DNA from: Shewanella psychromarinicola
GTDB taxonomy: Bacteria > Pseudomonadota > Gammaproteobacteria > Enterobacterales > Shewanellaceae
Assembly (NCBI RefSeq): GCF_003855155.1
Contig: NZ_CP034073.1
Coordinates: 4,774,001-4,838,000 of the forward strand
Length of the DNA: 64,000 bases
Direction: 5' to 3'
In this document: one piece after another, positions 21,802 to 27,571 of the stretch
How the letters are laid out: every line of letters begins with the position of its first letter
Position numbering within the stretch: position 1 is the first letter of the stretch
The notes under the pieces: model-generated
Database searches by the model: none
Told to the model about the DNA's origin: nothing
Seen by the model: only the letters and a program-made list of their open reading frames with translations
Made by a program: the position numbers and the translations under genes

Positions 21802-23307
21802 TCAAGCTTTTAGATCGGCATGCCAAGGTAATAAATCACTTAAATCAGCAAATTTATCCCGTTGTGGCAGTTCCGTGAAAAGTTTTTGGAAGTAAAAGTA
21901 CGGGTTAATATCGTTGGCACGGCAAGTCATCACCAAGCTATAAAGTGCAGCACTGGCTTTTGCACCATTTACCGATTGGCAGAACATCCAGTTTTTCCGC
22001 CCCGTCGTAAACGGCCTGATATCGCGTTCAGTGACATTATTATCAATGCCTAATTCACCTGATTCAAGGTAACGCCTCAGTTTTTCCCACTGATTCAATG
22101 TGTACTTGATTGCTACCCCAATTTTACTTTTGGGCAGGACTGTTTTCTCGCTTTTTTCTAACCATTCATGCAACGATGTTAAGATTGGCTCAGCCTTTTC
22201 CTGCCGGAGTGATTTTCGCTTATCGGGCGGTAATGTTTTTGCCCGCTTTTCTATTGCATACAGTTTTTGAATATAATTGATACCGACTGTTGCTTTGCCG
22301 GTTTTCTTCGGTTGCACCGCTAAGGCATCGTGGAATTTGCGTCTGGCGTGTGCCCAGCACCCGACTGGCATTATTCCTTCTATATTGTCGTAAACACTGT
22401 AACCATCACATTGTAAATATCCGGCATAATCTGCTAGAAATGCTTCTGGGCAACTGCGTGCACGACTCGGTTGATAATCATAAATAACAACAGGGTTATC
22501 GCTAAATTCATTGCTGCGATAGACCCACATATAGGATTTAGTTGCTGCTTTTCTATCTGGTTCATCCAATACTTGCACCGTTGTTTCATCTGCGCACAGC
22601 GTTGATTGAGCGAGTAGATTAGCTTTCATCGCAGCAATTAACGGCCTAACTAATTCGGCACTGGCTATGCACCAATTGGCCAGTGTAGCGCGGCTAATAT
22701 TTAAACCGCCACGGGCAAATATGTCGGTTAACCGATAAAGCGGTAGGGCATCACAGTATTTGGCGGTCACCACAGCCGCAAGCGCTTCAGGGCTGGCGAT
22801 ACTCTGGGGGATCGGCTGTGCAGGCTTAGGCGCGGTAATGACAGAGGTACTGGTTGATGTTGTTTCACATTCACGGCAAGCATACTTGGTTTGCCTGTGC
22901 TTAATGACGCTGATCTTCTCTGGAATAATGTTGACTTGTTCGCTTTCTTGCACACCGCATTCACGCATCACATGACCACAGCAATCGCACATAGGGCTGT
23001 CAAGAGTATAAGATCTTTCTTCACGTTCAAGGTGCTCAGGTAATCGTTTTCGACCCGTTTTACCTTGTTGTTTATTTTCATTTTTATTTGTGGATTGATC
23101 CTGCTCAGCTTCATTGAATGTGCCTTTCGGCATTTTCTCACTGCGTTGACCAAACTGCTTATTGCGGTTGAGTTGCAATTGTTCCAAAGCGATATTAAGG
23201 CGGTTTTCCAAGTCTTTATTTTTAGCATTGAGCACCTGATTTTCATGCTGCAACATTGCCAGCATTTTTTTTAGTTGTTCAATATTATCAGGCTGTTCAG
23301 TTGTCAT
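21802..23307 (-). CDS. tnpC: IS66 family transposase TnpC
   Basis: The 501-residue DDE transposase of the element. Residues 1-50 form a leucine-zipper-like coiled coil (IEQLKKMLAMLQHENQVLNAK). A TnpC zinc-binding region with CDCCGHVMRECG and YACRECE follows, then the catalytic core (LCADETTVQVLDEP, LQCDGYSVYDNIEG, GELGIDNNVTERDIRPFTTGRKNWMF broken across the acidic site). The C-terminal IS66 domain (YSLVMTCRANDINPYFYF) is complete. It appears intact. Confidence 0.96.
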   Translation of the reverse strand: MTTEQPDNIEQLKKMLAMLQHENQVLNAKNKDLENRLNIALEQLQLNRNKQFGQRSEKMPKGTFNEAEQDQSTNKNENKQQGKTGRKRLPEHLEREERSYTLDSPMCDCCGHVMRECGVQESEQVNIIPEKISVIKHRQTKYACRECETTSTSTSVITAPKPAQPIPQSIASPEALAAVVTAKYCDALPLYRLTDIFARGGLNISRATLANWCIASAELVRPLIAAMKANLLAQSTLCADETTVQVLDEPDRKAATKSYMWVYRSNEFSDNPVVIYDYQPSRARSCPEAFLADYAGYLQCDGYSVYDNIEGIMPVGCWAHARRKFHDALAVQPKKTGKATVGINYIQKLYAIEKRAKTLPPDKRKSLRQEKAEPILTSLHEWLEKSEKTVLPKSKIGVAIKYTLNQWEKLRRYLESGELGIDNNVTERDIRPFTTGRKNWMFCQSVNGAKASAALYSLVMTCRANDINPYFYFQKLFTELPQRDKFADLSDLLPWHADLKA

Positions 23308-23391
23308 TAATTAGCGTTCAAGACCAATAGATAGCGCTAGTTTGCCTGCTGTATTTGATCATGCAACCGCTATTTAGCGATCCAGTGATGA

Positions 23392-23742
23392 TCACCTCAC
23401 TGTCAGGCCATTTAAGGGTTTATGCCCATGGGATACTTCTAACGATAAGCCTGATAGTAACCAATTTAGCTGATGCTGGTTGATTGTCAGCGCGTCTTGT
23501 TCGTCGTTAGCGCCAGGCCACTTAAAGCGACCTTTTTCTAGCCGCCGATAGTAAAGCCAAAAACCATTAGTATCCCAAAATAAAATCTTAATTTTGTCCC
23601 GGTGGCGATTACAAAAAATAAACCAGGCTTGATTCAACGGATCCATTTCCAATACATCACTGACGATTAAAGATAAGCCATCAATGGCTTTACGCATGTC
23701 GGTATGGCCGGTAACAAGATAAATCTGCTTATGTGGTGTCAT
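23392..23742 (-). CDS. tnpB: IS66 accessory protein TnpB (Orf2)
   Basis: A 116-residue protein with the IS66 Orf2 signature: IYLVTGHTDMRKAIDGLSL, FIFCNRHRDKIKILFWDTNG and FWLYYRRLEKGRFKWP. It is required with TnpA and TnpC for IS66 transposition. Its start overlaps the tnpA stop (ATGA), indicating translational coupling. Confidence 0.95.
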   Translation of the reverse strand: MTPHKQIYLVTGHTDMRKAIDGLSLIVSDVLEMDPLNQAWFIFCNRHRDKIKILFWDTNGFWLYYRRLEKGRFKWPGANDEQDALTINQHQLNWLLSGLSLEVSHGHKPLNGLTVR

Positions 23743-24041
23743 GCTGATAGCACGCGTAAAAATTGTTGTAATTTGCTTGGCGCTAATGAGGCTGGAAAAG
23801 AAAACAGATAGCCGTTGGGCAATGCCAGCGTGAGTGGCTGGTCAGGTTTAATTTCAAGAAAAATCAGCGGCACCACTTTTTGCTTAGTTGATGACGAATG
23901 CGGGTTAAGTTTTTTAGTCCACGCATAAAATGTAGATAGGGTTAAGTCATTGGTTTTACAAAATTCAGCTTTGGTTAATTTACTTTCAGTTTGCTGCTGA
24001 AAAATGCGTTGCCAGTATTGTATTTTATCGTTTTTTGACAT
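23739..24041 (-). CDS. tnpA: IS66 accessory protein TnpA (Orf1)
   Basis: A 100-residue protein with an N-terminal helix-turn-helix-like region (YWQRIFQQQTESKLTKAEFC, LTLSTFYAWTKKL), as in IS66 Orf1. It is the first gene of the element, 62 nt inside the right inverted repeat. Confidence 0.92.
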   Translation of the reverse strand: MSKNDKIQYWQRIFQQQTESKLTKAEFCKTNDLTLSTFYAWTKKLNPHSSSTKQKVVPLIFLEIKPDQPLTLALPNGYLFSFPASLAPSKLQQFLRVLSA

Positions 24042-24378: not shown

Positions 24379-26166
24379 TCATAAGCCTGATTCGATTATT
24401 GTCAGCTTGTCTGATGACGGCGGTTTCATGGTGTCGTTGTAACATACCGCACAATTTCGACCGTTATGTTTGGCCTTATAAAGGGCTAAATCGGCACGGT
24501 GAATTAATGGATCAAGGCTTAAATCATTTTTATCGACACTGCTAATGCCACAACTGATGGTAACCGTAAAATCGTGGCCAGAGAAACGAGTGTTAATATT
24601 GGCAACTTCACTGCGGATCTGTTCGGCTAAATCAGCAGCTATATTTTCAGTCTGCTTGGGCATAAAGATAGCAAACTCTTCCCCGCCCATTCGAGTAAAA
24701 ATATGAGTAGAGTTCAACATATCACCAATCACATGAGTCACCTTTTTTAATACCCAGTCACCGGTGGCATGGCCATATTGATCATTAATATTTTTAAATA
24801 AGTCCAAATCCATCAACATAACTGAGAATGACTCGCCAAGCGTTTGAGCTTGAATGAATTCATTTTCCGCCATCTCTTGTCCTGTACGGCGGTTAAAAAT
24901 CCCCGTTAATCCATCTCGCTGCGCTTGTTTCATAAATTGATTACGTTGCAACCAAGCAGATACCAATAACAATAATAAACCAACAGAAAGACCCACAAGT
25001 AACGTTGAGATCATGATGGAGGAGCTTTTTTCCTTCATGACTAAATCTTTTTGTTTTATCAGTAACTCGTGATCTTGGATCAAACTGGTATTCTCACGAT
25101 TTTTTTCAACGCTATCAAAGCGGGCCATTTGATAAGCATTTTCTTTTACTTTCTGTTCATCAAGCAATTGCTTAGCCAGTGCAGAAGCGACAACTTGATA
25201 TTGGTACGCTTTATCAAAGTGACCACGTTTACCTGCAATCAAAGAAAGGACTTCATTAACACGCTTTTTTACTTGCATGTTACTGGGTTTATTAGGTAAA
25301 GCATTGACTAATTGGGCAAACATTTTAGCTTGTTGGTAATCGCCTGAATGAAAATAAATAACGCTTAAATAAGACTGTATTTCATTTATTTCAACTTTAA
25401 ATTTAAACTTTTGGTAGCGTTCTAAAGCCACTAGGTACAAACTTTCGGCTGCCGCATATTGTCCTTTATCAAACAGCACATTGCCTTGCCCCTTAATAGA
25501 CATAATCTCAATTAAAGGAAGGCCATGATCTTTACAATACACTCGGGTGTCTTTGAATAATGTTTCAGCTTGATCAAAGTGCTGTAATTTTAAATGCGCT
25601 ACAGAAAGGAGTAGCATTGAAAAACATTGATTTCGTGGATCTGCACCCTGGTTTAAACTCAGTGCTAATTGTGAAATTCGTAGCATTTCGTCATAAGCAC
25701 CGAGTTGTAAGTACACGTTCGACAAGCGATTATAAGACTTTATTTTTATGCTGTTATCTTGATAATTTTCGATACGAGAAAAATTTTCCTCTAAGAGAGA
25801 AAAAGCTCGTTGATAGTTTCGCTGCGCTATATTTACGGTAATTTTAAATAAATAAATATTTGTCAGAACTTCCCCTGTTGGGTTAAACGTTAACGCTTTA
25901 TCTAATGCCTTATCCGCTTCAACAAAATCGCCCAAATAAATATACTTTGCACTTAATAACCCATACAAACGACTGTGTTGTTGAGCCGTTAACAATGACT
26001 CAGAAGATAATGCAGCATCAATTTGTTCAATGGCTTGATTAATATCAGTCTGCAATGACTTTTCAATAGCATCTAAGCCTTTATCATAATCAATGCTAGC
26101 GGCAATCGCCGTACAGCTCAAAAACGATACAAAGATTATAAATATGTAGGGTAATTTTTTTAACAA
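24379..26166 (-). CDS. TPR sensor diguanylate cyclase (GGDEF), third gene of the borosin locus
   Basis: A 595-residue protein with a signal peptide (LKKLPYIFIIFVSFLSCTAIAA) and a TPR-rich extracytoplasmic region (about 25-340). A coiled-coil and one membrane helix near 385-408 (IMISTLLVGLSVGLLLLLVSAW) lead to a cytoplasmic GGDEF domain with the active motif GGEEF (about 494-498). The inhibitory I-site RxxD is not present five residues before it (the bases encode NSTH). It should make cyclic-di-GMP in response to a periplasmic protein or peptide cue. The start is TTG at 26166, only 5 nt after the stop of the borosin precursor, without a strong ribosome site, so translational coupling is likely. 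Confidence 0.88.
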   Translation of the reverse strand: MLKKLPYIFIIFVSFLSCTAIAASIDYDKGLDAIEKSLQTDINQAIEQIDAALSSESLLTAQQHSRLYGLLSAKYIYLGDFVEADKALDKALTFNPTGEVLTNIYLFKITVNIAQRNYQRAFSLLEENFSRIENYQDNSIKIKSYNRLSNVYLQLGAYDEMLRISQLALSLNQGADPRNQCFSMLLLSVAHLKLQHFDQAETLFKDTRVYCKDHGLPLIEIMSIKGQGNVLFDKGQYAAAESLYLVALERYQKFKFKVEINEIQSYLSVIYFHSGDYQQAKMFAQLVNALPNKPSNMQVKKRVNEVLSLIAGKRGHFDKAYQYQVVASALAKQLLDEQKVKENAYQMARFDSVEKNRENTSLIQDHELLIKQKDLVMKEKSSSIMISTLLVGLSVGLLLLLVSAWLQRNQFMKQAQRDGLTGIFNRRTGQEMAENEFIQAQTLGESFSVMLMDLDLFKNINDQYGHATGDWVLKKVTHVIGDMLNSTHIFTRMGGEEFAIFMPKQTENIAADLAEQIRSEVANINTRFSGHDFTVTISCGISSVDKNDLSLDPLIHRADLALYKAKHNGRNCAVCYNDTMKPPSSDKLTIIESGL

Positions 26167-26171
26167 AATAA

Positions 26172-26384
26172 CTACTCTGTTGGATTTAGCACAATCAAAT
26201 ACATCGCCATTTCTTTGTCGCCGGACAACTGGCTGATGCGCGTTTTGTCGCCAGACATTACCGCTTCAATCTCTTCTTCTGTTAATCCATTTGATTTCAT
26301 TACGCCGCGAGGATCACGCTTATATGCTTCTAATAGCGCAGCATTAGTCCCCAGTTTAGTAAAAAATGTACTTATGTTCGACAT
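26172..26384 (-). CDS. SonA-like borosin precursor peptide
   Basis: A 70-residue peptide. Residues 1-58 form the helical borosin-binding (LigA-like) domain, with STFFTKLGTNAALLEAYKRD and GVMKSNGLTEEEIEAVMSGD. The C-terminal tail MAMYLIVLNPTE (59-70) is a hydrophobic core with the run YLIVL. In split borosins such as SonA of Shewanella oneidensis, residues in this tail receive backbone N-methyl groups from a separate methyltransferase. A matching SonM-like gene lies upstream. The pattern differs from LigA dioxygenase subunits, which would sit beside LigB. A TATAAT and an AGAG ribosome site precede the ATG at 26384. Confidence 0.85.
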   Translation of the reverse strand: MSNISTFFTKLGTNAALLEAYKRDPRGVMKSNGLTEEEIEAVMSGDKTRISQLSGDKEMAMYLIVLNPTE

Positions 26385-26410
26385 GTTATTGCTCTCTATT
26401 TTAAGAATTT

Positions 26411-26416
26411 ATTATA
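26411..26416 (-). promoter_or_regulatory. Possible -10 element for the borosin precursor gene
   Basis: On the minus strand TATAAT lies 27 nt before the precursor ATG. The -35 region is poor. It could give the precursor its own promoter in addition to readthrough from the methyltransferase gene. Confidence 0.4.
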
Positions 26417-26508
26417 GTTTTTTATTGTTAATTCATAATCATAATGACATAACAGGTTGCAACTCAACACCTAAAGAGCATGCTACTGATTTAGCTAGCG
26501 TTCATAAG

Positions 26509-26531
26509 CTGGAGTGTACTTTACACTCCAG
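26509..26531 (-). other. Strong hairpin between methyltransferase and precursor genes
   Basis: A perfect 10-bp stem, CTGGAGTGTA / TACACTCCAG, with a 3-nt loop lies in the 350-nt gap of the borosin operon. No T-run follows on the minus strand. It could be a processing or stabilising element that sets precursor level above enzyme level, or a protein-binding site. The rest of the gap shows no ORF. Confidence 0.6.
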
Positions 26532-26734
26532 TGGAATTAACAACAAACGGTGCTAGTTGTTACCCTTACATTAGCTGACAATTTCAATGAGCCATATTCT
26601 AAATGTGCCGATTAACATTGGCAAAAGGGTATTCCATCATTGCTGCATCCATATCCAGCATTATAAAAAAATCGTCATGTTAACCATAATAACTCTCTTA
26701 TTGTATCGTATAATCTTTTAATTTTAACAGTCAC

Positions 26735-27571
26735 TTACCCCATATCTAATGCTGTTATGCCTAATTTAGCCAACATTTCATGGTTAAGAGTGATTTGGCT
26801 CGCAGGAGGGATCAATAATGTGCTAATCGTCGTTAACCTAGCCTCTGGCAATGCCGACAGCGATATACGCTCTATCACTGGTGATTGAAATGGCAAATTT
26901 GCTGCTTCATATATAATCACTTGATGGTTAAGCGGATACCACTGAGATAAATGTTCAACCAAAACCTGCAATCTCGCTTCAGTGGTACTAAATTGAGTCA
27001 AGGTGTGTTCGCCAGCAAGGGCTATCTGCCAAAGTAACAGGTGCGTGGTAGGATCAGGGACATGGTGATAAAGCATGAATTGAGTAGCCTCAAAGCTTTG
27101 GTGACCACTATTGCCAGGATCGATGCCTAAATCGGCCCACAAACACGCTTCGGCTGAAATCCCCGGTAACATGCTCGCGTCGTAACCTTCAGCACGGGCT
27201 TGTTTAATGGATAAATGCGCCACACAAGCAAACACCCCTGGGTGCCCATATAATGCGCACACAACTAATTTCCCTAGGCGCACTTCATCTAAAACGGCAT
27301 TGATCATTTCAGCATAAGTATCACGGCGATTTTTTATCTCATCGTGTTGAGCATAGTAAACTTGTAGTGAACGCACATCAGCATTAAGCGACATCAGCCA
27401 CCGTTCAGAAAAACCATCGGGCACTAACGAAAACACCACATCAGCATGTTCAATATAACTCAAACTTAATAAGCCTATTTGCCCAGCAAGCTGTAACCCG
27501 GTTCCAACACAAATAAGCTTACCTTGGTTTGCACTAGCTAATGTTGTTACCTGCGATGGATGAATAGTCAT
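26735..27571 (-). CDS. SonM-like borosin peptide backbone (alpha-N) methyltransferase
   Basis: A 278-residue protein of the SAM-dependent tetrapyrrole methylase fold. Visible motifs are LICVGTGLQLAGQIGLLS (19-36), the KNRRDTYAEM segment (80-89), VVCALYGHPGVFACV (103-117), MLPGISAEACLWADLGIDPG (134-153), HQSFEATQFMLYHH and PDPTTHLLLWQIALAGEH. This closely follows the split-borosin enzyme SonM, including the YGHPG and GISAEACLWADLGIDPG segments, rather than CobA/CysG-type porphyrin methylases. No porphyrin or cobalamin gene is nearby. It methylates backbone amides of a separate precursor, here the 70-residue peptide gene 350 nt downstream. Confidence 0.88.
   Translation of the reverse strand: MTIHPSQVTTLASANQGKLICVGTGLQLAGQIGLLSLSYIEHADVVFSLVPDGFSERWLMSLNADVRSLQVYYAQHDEIKNRRDTYAEMINAVLDEVRLGKLVVCALYGHPGVFACVAHLSIKQARAEGYDASMLPGISAEACLWADLGIDPGNSGHQSFEATQFMLYHHVPDPTTHLLLWQIALAGEHTLTQFSTTEARLQVLVEHLSQWYPLNHQVIIYEAANLPFQSPVIERISLSALPEARLTTISTLLIPPASQITLNHEMLAKLGITALDMG

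Follow-up and report, generated by a model that had tools for sequence, protein, structure and literature searches.

Within the window, the 64,000-nucleotide stretch of Shewanella psychromarinicola analyzed here (assembly GCF_003855155.1, contig NZ_CP034073.1, positions 4,774,001 to 4,838,000; genome size 5.13 Mb), a split borosin locus encodes a SonM-like backbone α-N-methyltransferase, a SonA-like precursor peptide and, as a third gene, a diguanylate cyclase that joins a tetratricopeptide repeat (TPR) sensor to a GGDEF domain. Close relatives replace the C-terminal core of the precursor and the TPR sensor jointly, while the methylase, the precursor leader and the GGDEF domain stay more alike. 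Because the outer part of the sensor changes with the peptide, we suggest that the peptide serves as a signal for which the sensor is the receptor. We consider it fairly probable that the N-methylated peptide would act as a polymorphic signal for the linked TPR receptor, with cyclic diguanylate (c-di-GMP) as the output here and a phosphorelay elsewhere. The first-pass annotation of this DNA had recognized the split borosin pair, and that part stands; its extent of the locus fell short, as the third, co-varying gene had been left out.

Joint variation of peptide core and TPR sensor

The three genes are closely linked across Shewanella. A methylase match was found in 113 of 129 genomes of the genus, although that of G043 reached only E 7e-5 and was not counted as SonM. 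The principal set comprised 109 bamE-type loci (108 from Shewanella and one from Parashewanella), with bamE divergent and upstream in the rows inspected. Methylase, precursor and TPR-GGDEF cyclase-like gene occurred in this order on one strand in all 109 loci, and the gap between precursor and cyclase had a median of 6 bases, falling between −30 and 30 in 94. Some of the cyclases appear interrupted (for example L155, L067, L071, L076 and L065). A second Shewanella family lacks bamE and has methylases 46–55% identical to that of the window. In 36 of its 39 loci (38 Shewanella and L052, an Alteromonadaceae), the first following gene longer than 450 residues encodes a GGDEF protein; L137 ends at a contig end, and L163 and L165 gave partial cyclase matches only. 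In this family (L133–L154 and L159–L174), the precursors are mostly strongly acidic-tailed and are followed by a TPR-GGDEF-like gene, and two or three precursors are present in L135, L153, L160, L165, L170 and L173.

Loss was surveyed in 21 genomes of the genus: the 16 that lacked a methylase match and, in addition, G043, G005, G011, G053 and G067. In 19 of them the bamE locus was recovered, flanked by at most 1.5 kb. One of these, L279, holds a methylase in two frames together with a precursor. None of the other 18 gave a methylase or precursor match at the locus, and 16 of the 18 had no cyclase there in a search confined to the locus; L294 carries a 58-residue GGDEF-like fragment and L291 a cyclase-like gene. 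The linkage of signal, modifying enzyme and receptor genes that characterizes polymorphic pheromone–receptor systems is present as gene linkage, with the linked protein as putative receptor.

Protein distances were compared in 99 of the 109 bamE-type loci, after removal of ten with a cyclase below 550 or a methylase below 250 residues. Mean distances were 0.287 for the methylase, 0.458 for GGDEF, 0.468 for the leader, 0.672 for TPR and 0.801 for the core. Core and TPR distances were correlated with a partial r of 0.638 when methylase and GGDEF were controlled (p 0.001, 999 permutations) and of 0.522 when the leader was controlled too. Core and GGDEF gave r 0.069 given methylase and TPR (p 0.014), and core and methylase −0.083 given the rest. 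Along the cyclase, the link to the core was 0.37–0.60 in segments starting at residues 1–341, fell from 0.28 to 0.16 at starts 361–401 and lay between −0.17 and 0.09 at starts 421–561; in segments of the methylase, its 3′ end included, it was −0.03 to 0.11 (GGDEF alone as control). When core sequences were clustered into 35 types, the TPR tree required 35 changes, the GGDEF tree 42 and the methylase tree 44 (FastTree; minimum 34). The second family, calculated without permutation on 32 of its 39 rows (three dropped for want of a next gene over 450 residues and four for want of a precursor match), gave a core–TPR partial r of 0.32 versus 0.09 for core–GGDEF. Peptide and sensor co-vary without their flanks, the leader in part excepted, as in pheromone–receptor pairs, a pattern that block recombination alone might also produce.

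Two observations weigh against a receptor role for the sensor: core and TPR are contiguous, and the leader partly co-varies as well, with a leader–TPR r of 0.506 given methylase, GGDEF and core. Both would suit an ordinary split borosin with an antimicrobial or metal-related product, whose cyclase recombines with the precursor merely through adjacency, and the discussion of PMC8429565 names no final product as known for type IV borosins. Adjacency alone would not readily account for the low core link in the methylase and in the GGDEF segments from residue 421 onward, for TPR sensors that adjoin the precursor in various gene orders and have two kinds of output (see below), or for genes that are mostly absent together in the genomes checked, and we consider this explanation unlikely.

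The joint replacement is sharpest among close relatives. In 85 pairs with a methylase distance below 0.06, core distance tracked TPR distance with ρ 0.85 and GGDEF distance with ρ 0.30. TPR distances ranged from 0.003 to 0.150 in the 22 pairs with near-identical cores (<0.1) and from 0.358 to 0.551 in the 38 pairs with different cores (≥0.5); between the same two groups, mean GGDEF distance was 0.056 versus 0.107 and mean leader distance 0.033 versus 0.097. At the DNA level, L317 (the SonA type) and L057 are 96% identical in methylase and leader and 52% in the core, then 38–68% from the signal peptide through the TPR part as far as residue 330, and 80–96% from there on. This shape was repeated in six further pairs and was weaker in L092/L095 and L038/L040, whose cyclases are no more than 72–84% identical beyond residue 331; two same-type control pairs were 78–100% identical throughout. 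It could also be proposed that the TPR cyclase senses some other cue (a surface, a metal or a protein) and that c-di-GMP controls production or use of the peptide, the genes being joined by co-regulation only. A parallel would be RcbB of Vibrio vulnificus, which combines TPR with GGDEF and is under the control of a partner protein via TPR contacts (accessible portion of PMC12282931). Such an account, which we regard as quite improbable, leaves unexplained why, in close pairs, the core tracks the TPR type more than leader and methylase do.

A second, partly decayed precursor lies upstream of the active one in L058, L065, L078, L081, L312 and L313, and several of these are of another core type. 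L313 and L081 have an upstream precursor with FLLVNHGN and an active one of the YLI/VIS type, and L065 has upstream YLIISHGN and active FLLVNHGNN; these three loci keep the old-type precursor as a scar. In L058, a first precursor, a signal-peptide-like start (a weak cyclase match) and a methylase fragment stand ahead of the active precursor and cyclase.

The borosin pair and the TPR-GGDEF cyclase

The methylase matched SonM best in the PDB (7ltc_A, E 1.4e-130, residues 17–278), followed by the fungal borosin methylases, and its Pfam match is PF00590 (E 4.6e-20). SonM residues Y58, R67, Y71 and Y93, mutated according to the accessible text of PMC8429565, correspond to Y73, R82, Y86 and Y108 here and are invariant across an alignment of 11 methylases (A1). 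The SonM identity proposed in the first-pass annotation is borne out by this match and these residues, the three SonM-like segments that it quoted are all present in the translation, and both of its open reading frames lie where it had placed them (Table 1). A porphyrin or cobalamin methylase, which it had named as the best match that would speak against SonM, did not emerge: precorrin-2 C20-methyltransferase (E 1.8e-4) was the sole classical TP-methylase among the 26 PDB matches, and NCBIfam YabN (40 bits versus a cut-off of 525) and cobI_cbiL (30.7 versus 163.25) stayed far below threshold, so that this identity was rejected. The methylase of the window shares 85% identity with its counterpart in Shewanella frigidimarina KCTC 23109.

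The precursor aligned with PDB SonA (7ltc_B, E 2.7e-17) without gaps across residues 1–66, as expected from its earlier description as SonA-like. The methylated SonA residues given in the accessible text of PMC8429565, L63 and I65, align with L63 and V65, which are probably the N-methyl sites of this peptide and had been named as such before; the core was also rightly described as unlike that of SonA (YLIVLNPTE here, YLVISHGNGD in L317). No Pfam or NCBIfam model matched the precursor above its cut-off (LigA 19.6 bits versus 25.3; Os1348-family 19.6 versus 40). The genome of the window holds one convincing precursor copy (E 3.2e-41), the sole other match being at E 0.7. Type IV (split) borosins have already been reported as common in Shewanella. 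Given the SonM and SonA matches, the retained key residues and the aligned methyl sites, the separate, adjacent methylase and precursor genes are by sequence assigned as a type IV borosin pair with its own core, the precursor carrying a SonA-like borosin binding domain.

Methylase and precursor are separated by 350 bases. A decayed precursor was ruled out there, as a search of the gap for the borosin binding domain gave no real match (best E 0.71 for the gap of the window). Long gaps of 266–350 bases occur in six S. frigidimarina-like loci. The gap of the window contains an inverted repeat (26509–26531) whose 10-base arms match perfectly around a 3-base loop, without a clear T-run; among five relatives aligned, an imperfect version was present in L155 only.

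From sequence and hydropathy, the third protein would begin with a signal peptide, place its TPR domain in the periplasm, cross the membrane with a single helix and keep its GGEEF cyclase part in the cytoplasm. A motif scan of the GGDEF domain found no RxxD inhibitory site. AlphaFold2 models were obtained for the full-length protein (predicted local distance difference test (pLDDT) 93.4, predicted template modeling score (pTM) 0.67) and for TPR residues 22–345 alone (pLDDT 95.1, pTM 0.89). Among 100 full-length orthologues, the N-terminal hydrophobic stretch was present in 97, the stretch before GGDEF in all and an intact GG(D/E)EF in 93. Cys181 and Cys211 are both kept in 99 of 99 Shewanella-type orthologues, and a disulfide between them would fit a periplasmic location. 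In a structure search with the TPR model, Rap and NprR were among the best matches, alongside APPBP2, LGN, APC subunits and many other TPR proteins, a model-based resemblance; the full-length model retrieved mostly GGDEF-containing structures among the matches listed. The phmmer matches of the TPR part in the PDB were weak (best E 3.8e-5) and comprised consensus or designed TPRs, LGN, kinesin light chain and a few others. Variability did not differ clearly between TPR helices A and B, and we therefore claim no binding groove. Just downstream of the cyclase lies an IS66-family element (21802–24041) with a transposase (PF03050) and TnpB (PF05717); its third open reading frame had no Pfam match.

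Table 1. Features of the borosin–cyclase locus, in window coordinates
Feature	Position	Strand	Basis and remarks
SonM-like backbone α-N-methyltransferase	26735..27571	minus	278 aa, ATG start; residues 1-16 outside the SonM match
SonA-like precursor	26172..26384	minus	70 aa, ATG start; match to PDB SonA 7ltc_B
Borosin binding domain (leader, residues 1-53)	26226..26384	minus	gap-free SonA alignment; limits from accessible text of PMC8429565
Predicted core (residues 62-70), YLIVLNPTE	26175..26201	minus	SonA alignment and SonA methyl sites (accessible text of PMC8429565)
TPR-GGDEF diguanylate cyclase	24379..26166	minus	595 aa, TTG start 5 bases past the precursor stop; GGDEF E 1.5e-42, TPR_12 E 3.3e-13
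Predicted signal peptide of cyclase (about residues 1-23)	26098..26166	minus	read from sequence, no dedicated predictor; hydropathy peak 2.31 near N-terminus
TPR sensor domain (about residues 27-333), with Cys181 and Cys211	25168..26088	minus	TPR Pfam matches
Predicted transmembrane helix (about residues 380-402)	24961..25029	minus	hydropathy peak 2.61 ahead of GGDEF; inside the model's long helix 317-416
GGDEF domain (residues 415-571)	24454..24924	minus	Pfam; GGEEF motif present

Sensor outputs in other genera

Alignment searches returned matches in 95 of 394 genomes of the order and 15 of 398 of the phylum, the two sets overlapping, and 72 genomes outside the genus had a methylase match (68 from the order search and four new from the phylum search). 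From 46 genomes, 60 stretches were taken: 45 of the genomes lie outside the genus and were hand-picked before their neighboring genes were seen, and the remaining one supplied a second Shewanella locus, L278. As several genomes are represented by two or three stretches, the 60 are not independent. Addition of L051–L053 brought the set to 63 loci, of which 60 could be scored (59 of these from other genera); L053 (cut) and L255 and L262 (methylase inside long open reading frames, no precursor found) had no scorable neighbor. In L219, L224, L234, L257, L259, L261, L270 and L278, the next gene was chosen from open reading frame listings instead of the automatic pick; L259 was corrected in the count only, and its wrong-frame reading remains in the sensor alignment (A2).

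The next gene encoded a GGDEF protein in 40 of the 60 loci, a histidine kinase in 15, TPR only in four (L244, L272, L273 and L276) and an HD-GYP protein in one. TPR matches were present in 14 of the 15 kinases; L234, truncated at a contig end, matched HisKA only. In alignment A2, TPR_12 alone matched 41 of 61 members, TPR in the GGDEF type not being listed per member. Its GGDEF members keep Cys181 in 40 of 40 and Cys211 in 39 of 40, and 14 of its 15 kinase-type members lack both, L234 being the exception.

No precursor was detected in ten of the 60 loci (L229, L240, L242, L247, L248, L253, L263, L264, L268 and L277), for which scoring used the gene that follows the methylase; this was a GGDEF gene in L240, L242, L247, L248, L253 and L263. 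A GGDEF gene adjoined a detected precursor in 32 of the 60 fetched stretches, in the order methylase–precursor–GGDEF in 20, precursor–GGDEF–methylase in 11 and with the methylase on the opposite strand in one. From the gene orders and outputs across these loci, precursor and sensor stay together while the position of the methylase and the output of the sensor vary.

The signaling domains also bear on a toxin–immunity-like reading, in which the peptide hits competitors, the TPR protein serves to protect or warn the producer and type switching reflects competition. A polymorphic cassette with remnant precursors does resemble toxin–immunity exchange, but a GGDEF or histidine kinase output is present in 55 of the 60 further loci and immunity needs none; we find this reading very improbable.

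Other arrangements were also observed. L229 (4003–5262) has an HD-GYP-like protein (HD_5 and DUF3391), a c-di-GMP-related domain, in place of the TPR sensor downstream of the SonM-like gene. Tandem GGDEF genes follow the methylase in L232, L237, L247, L249 and L261. SonM-like domains lie within longer open reading frames in L255 (600–2516; 638 residues) and L262 (3454–6978; 1,174 residues), as other borosin-like architectures.

A proposed peptide signal and its known counterparts

For the proposed signaling role, the following course can be envisaged. By analogy to SonM/SonA, the SonM-like enzyme would bind the precursor leader and N-methylate the core at the C-terminus, with L63 and V65 as the probable sites here. 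The core would then be cleaved off and reach the periplasm or the outside, and N-methylation may aid membrane crossing. The periplasmic TPR domain encoded by the next gene would bind the matching peptide and signal via the membrane helix to GGDEF, altering c-di-GMP, a step that linkage, co-variation and fold lead us to infer; sensors of this kind in related loci would drive a histidine kinase instead. With peptide and sensor domain swapped jointly, as in pheromone–receptor types, each lineage would answer mainly to its own peptide. That gammaproteobacterial split borosins as a class are peptide pheromones with a cognate periplasmic TPR receptor and an exchangeable output (diguanylate cyclase, histidine kinase or hybrid kinase), core and sensor switching as one cassette, is in our judgment evenly balanced.

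If the locus does encode such a signal, a polymorphic modified peptide would feed c-di-GMP in Gram-negative bacteria, and ligand–sensor pairs would be predictable from sequence. The class-wide proposal, if true, would define a Gram-negative family of cell–cell signaling by ribosomally synthesized and post-translationally modified peptides (RiPPs) and give type IV borosins a function. For the borosin of S. oneidensis, a laboratory strain whose SonM and SonA have already been purified and crystallized, the co-varying TPR sensor offers a concrete function to test.

Peptide receptors with TPR folds are known from the RRNPP family (Rap, NprR), which are cytoplasmic, bind re-imported peptides and carry a helix-turn-helix or Rap-type N-terminal effector. 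The cyclase of the window shows neither this location nor this effector; it has instead an N-terminal hydrophobic segment or signal peptide, a membrane helix and a C-terminal output, GGDEF here and GGDEF or kinase among its relatives. In ComX–ComP and AgrD–AgrC, a modifying enzyme and a variable peptide are encoded next to a membrane receptor whose sensor part co-varies. The present locus shares the modifying enzyme, the variable peptide and the adjacent membrane sensor that co-varies with it, and differs in its Gram-negative host, borosin chemistry, soluble TPR sensor domain and, in the loci seen, mostly GGDEF output.

TPR is likewise joined to GGDEF in ScrJ and ScrL of V. parahaemolyticus (PMC9303241) and in RcbB (PMC12282931). 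The accessible portion of PMC12282931 describes two V. parahaemolyticus cyclases with a predicted periplasmic TPR, which we take to be ScrJ and ScrL. Unlike the peptide proposed here, no ligand peptide is named for ScrJ/ScrL or RcbB in the accessible portions of these two papers, and RcbB is predicted to be cytoplasmic. The open-licence papers searched contained nothing linking a borosin with a diguanylate cyclase, although subscription papers, the supplement of PMC8429565 and later split-borosin surveys may show the neighboring gene, and nothing joining a RiPP precursor peptide with tetratricopeptide and GGDEF or a pherotype with a diguanylate cyclase. The words diguanylate, GGDEF, tetratricopeptide and TPR are all absent from the main text of PMC8429565.

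The nearest known system is SonM/SonA of S. oneidensis (accessible text of PMC8429565; PDB 7LTC), which the locus resembles in its separate methylase and precursor with borosin binding domain, its key residues, its methyl sites and its locus type. The precursor of L317 is identical to SonA over the 66 residues compared, and a TPR-GGDEF gene of 596 residues follows it directly. Besides its core, the locus of the window differs from L317 in the gap between methylase and precursor (350 versus 44 bases) and in 16 additional N-terminal residues of the methylase. The split borosin pair is the known part of the locus, and the third gene, a linked, co-varying sensor with an exchangeable output, is the new part.
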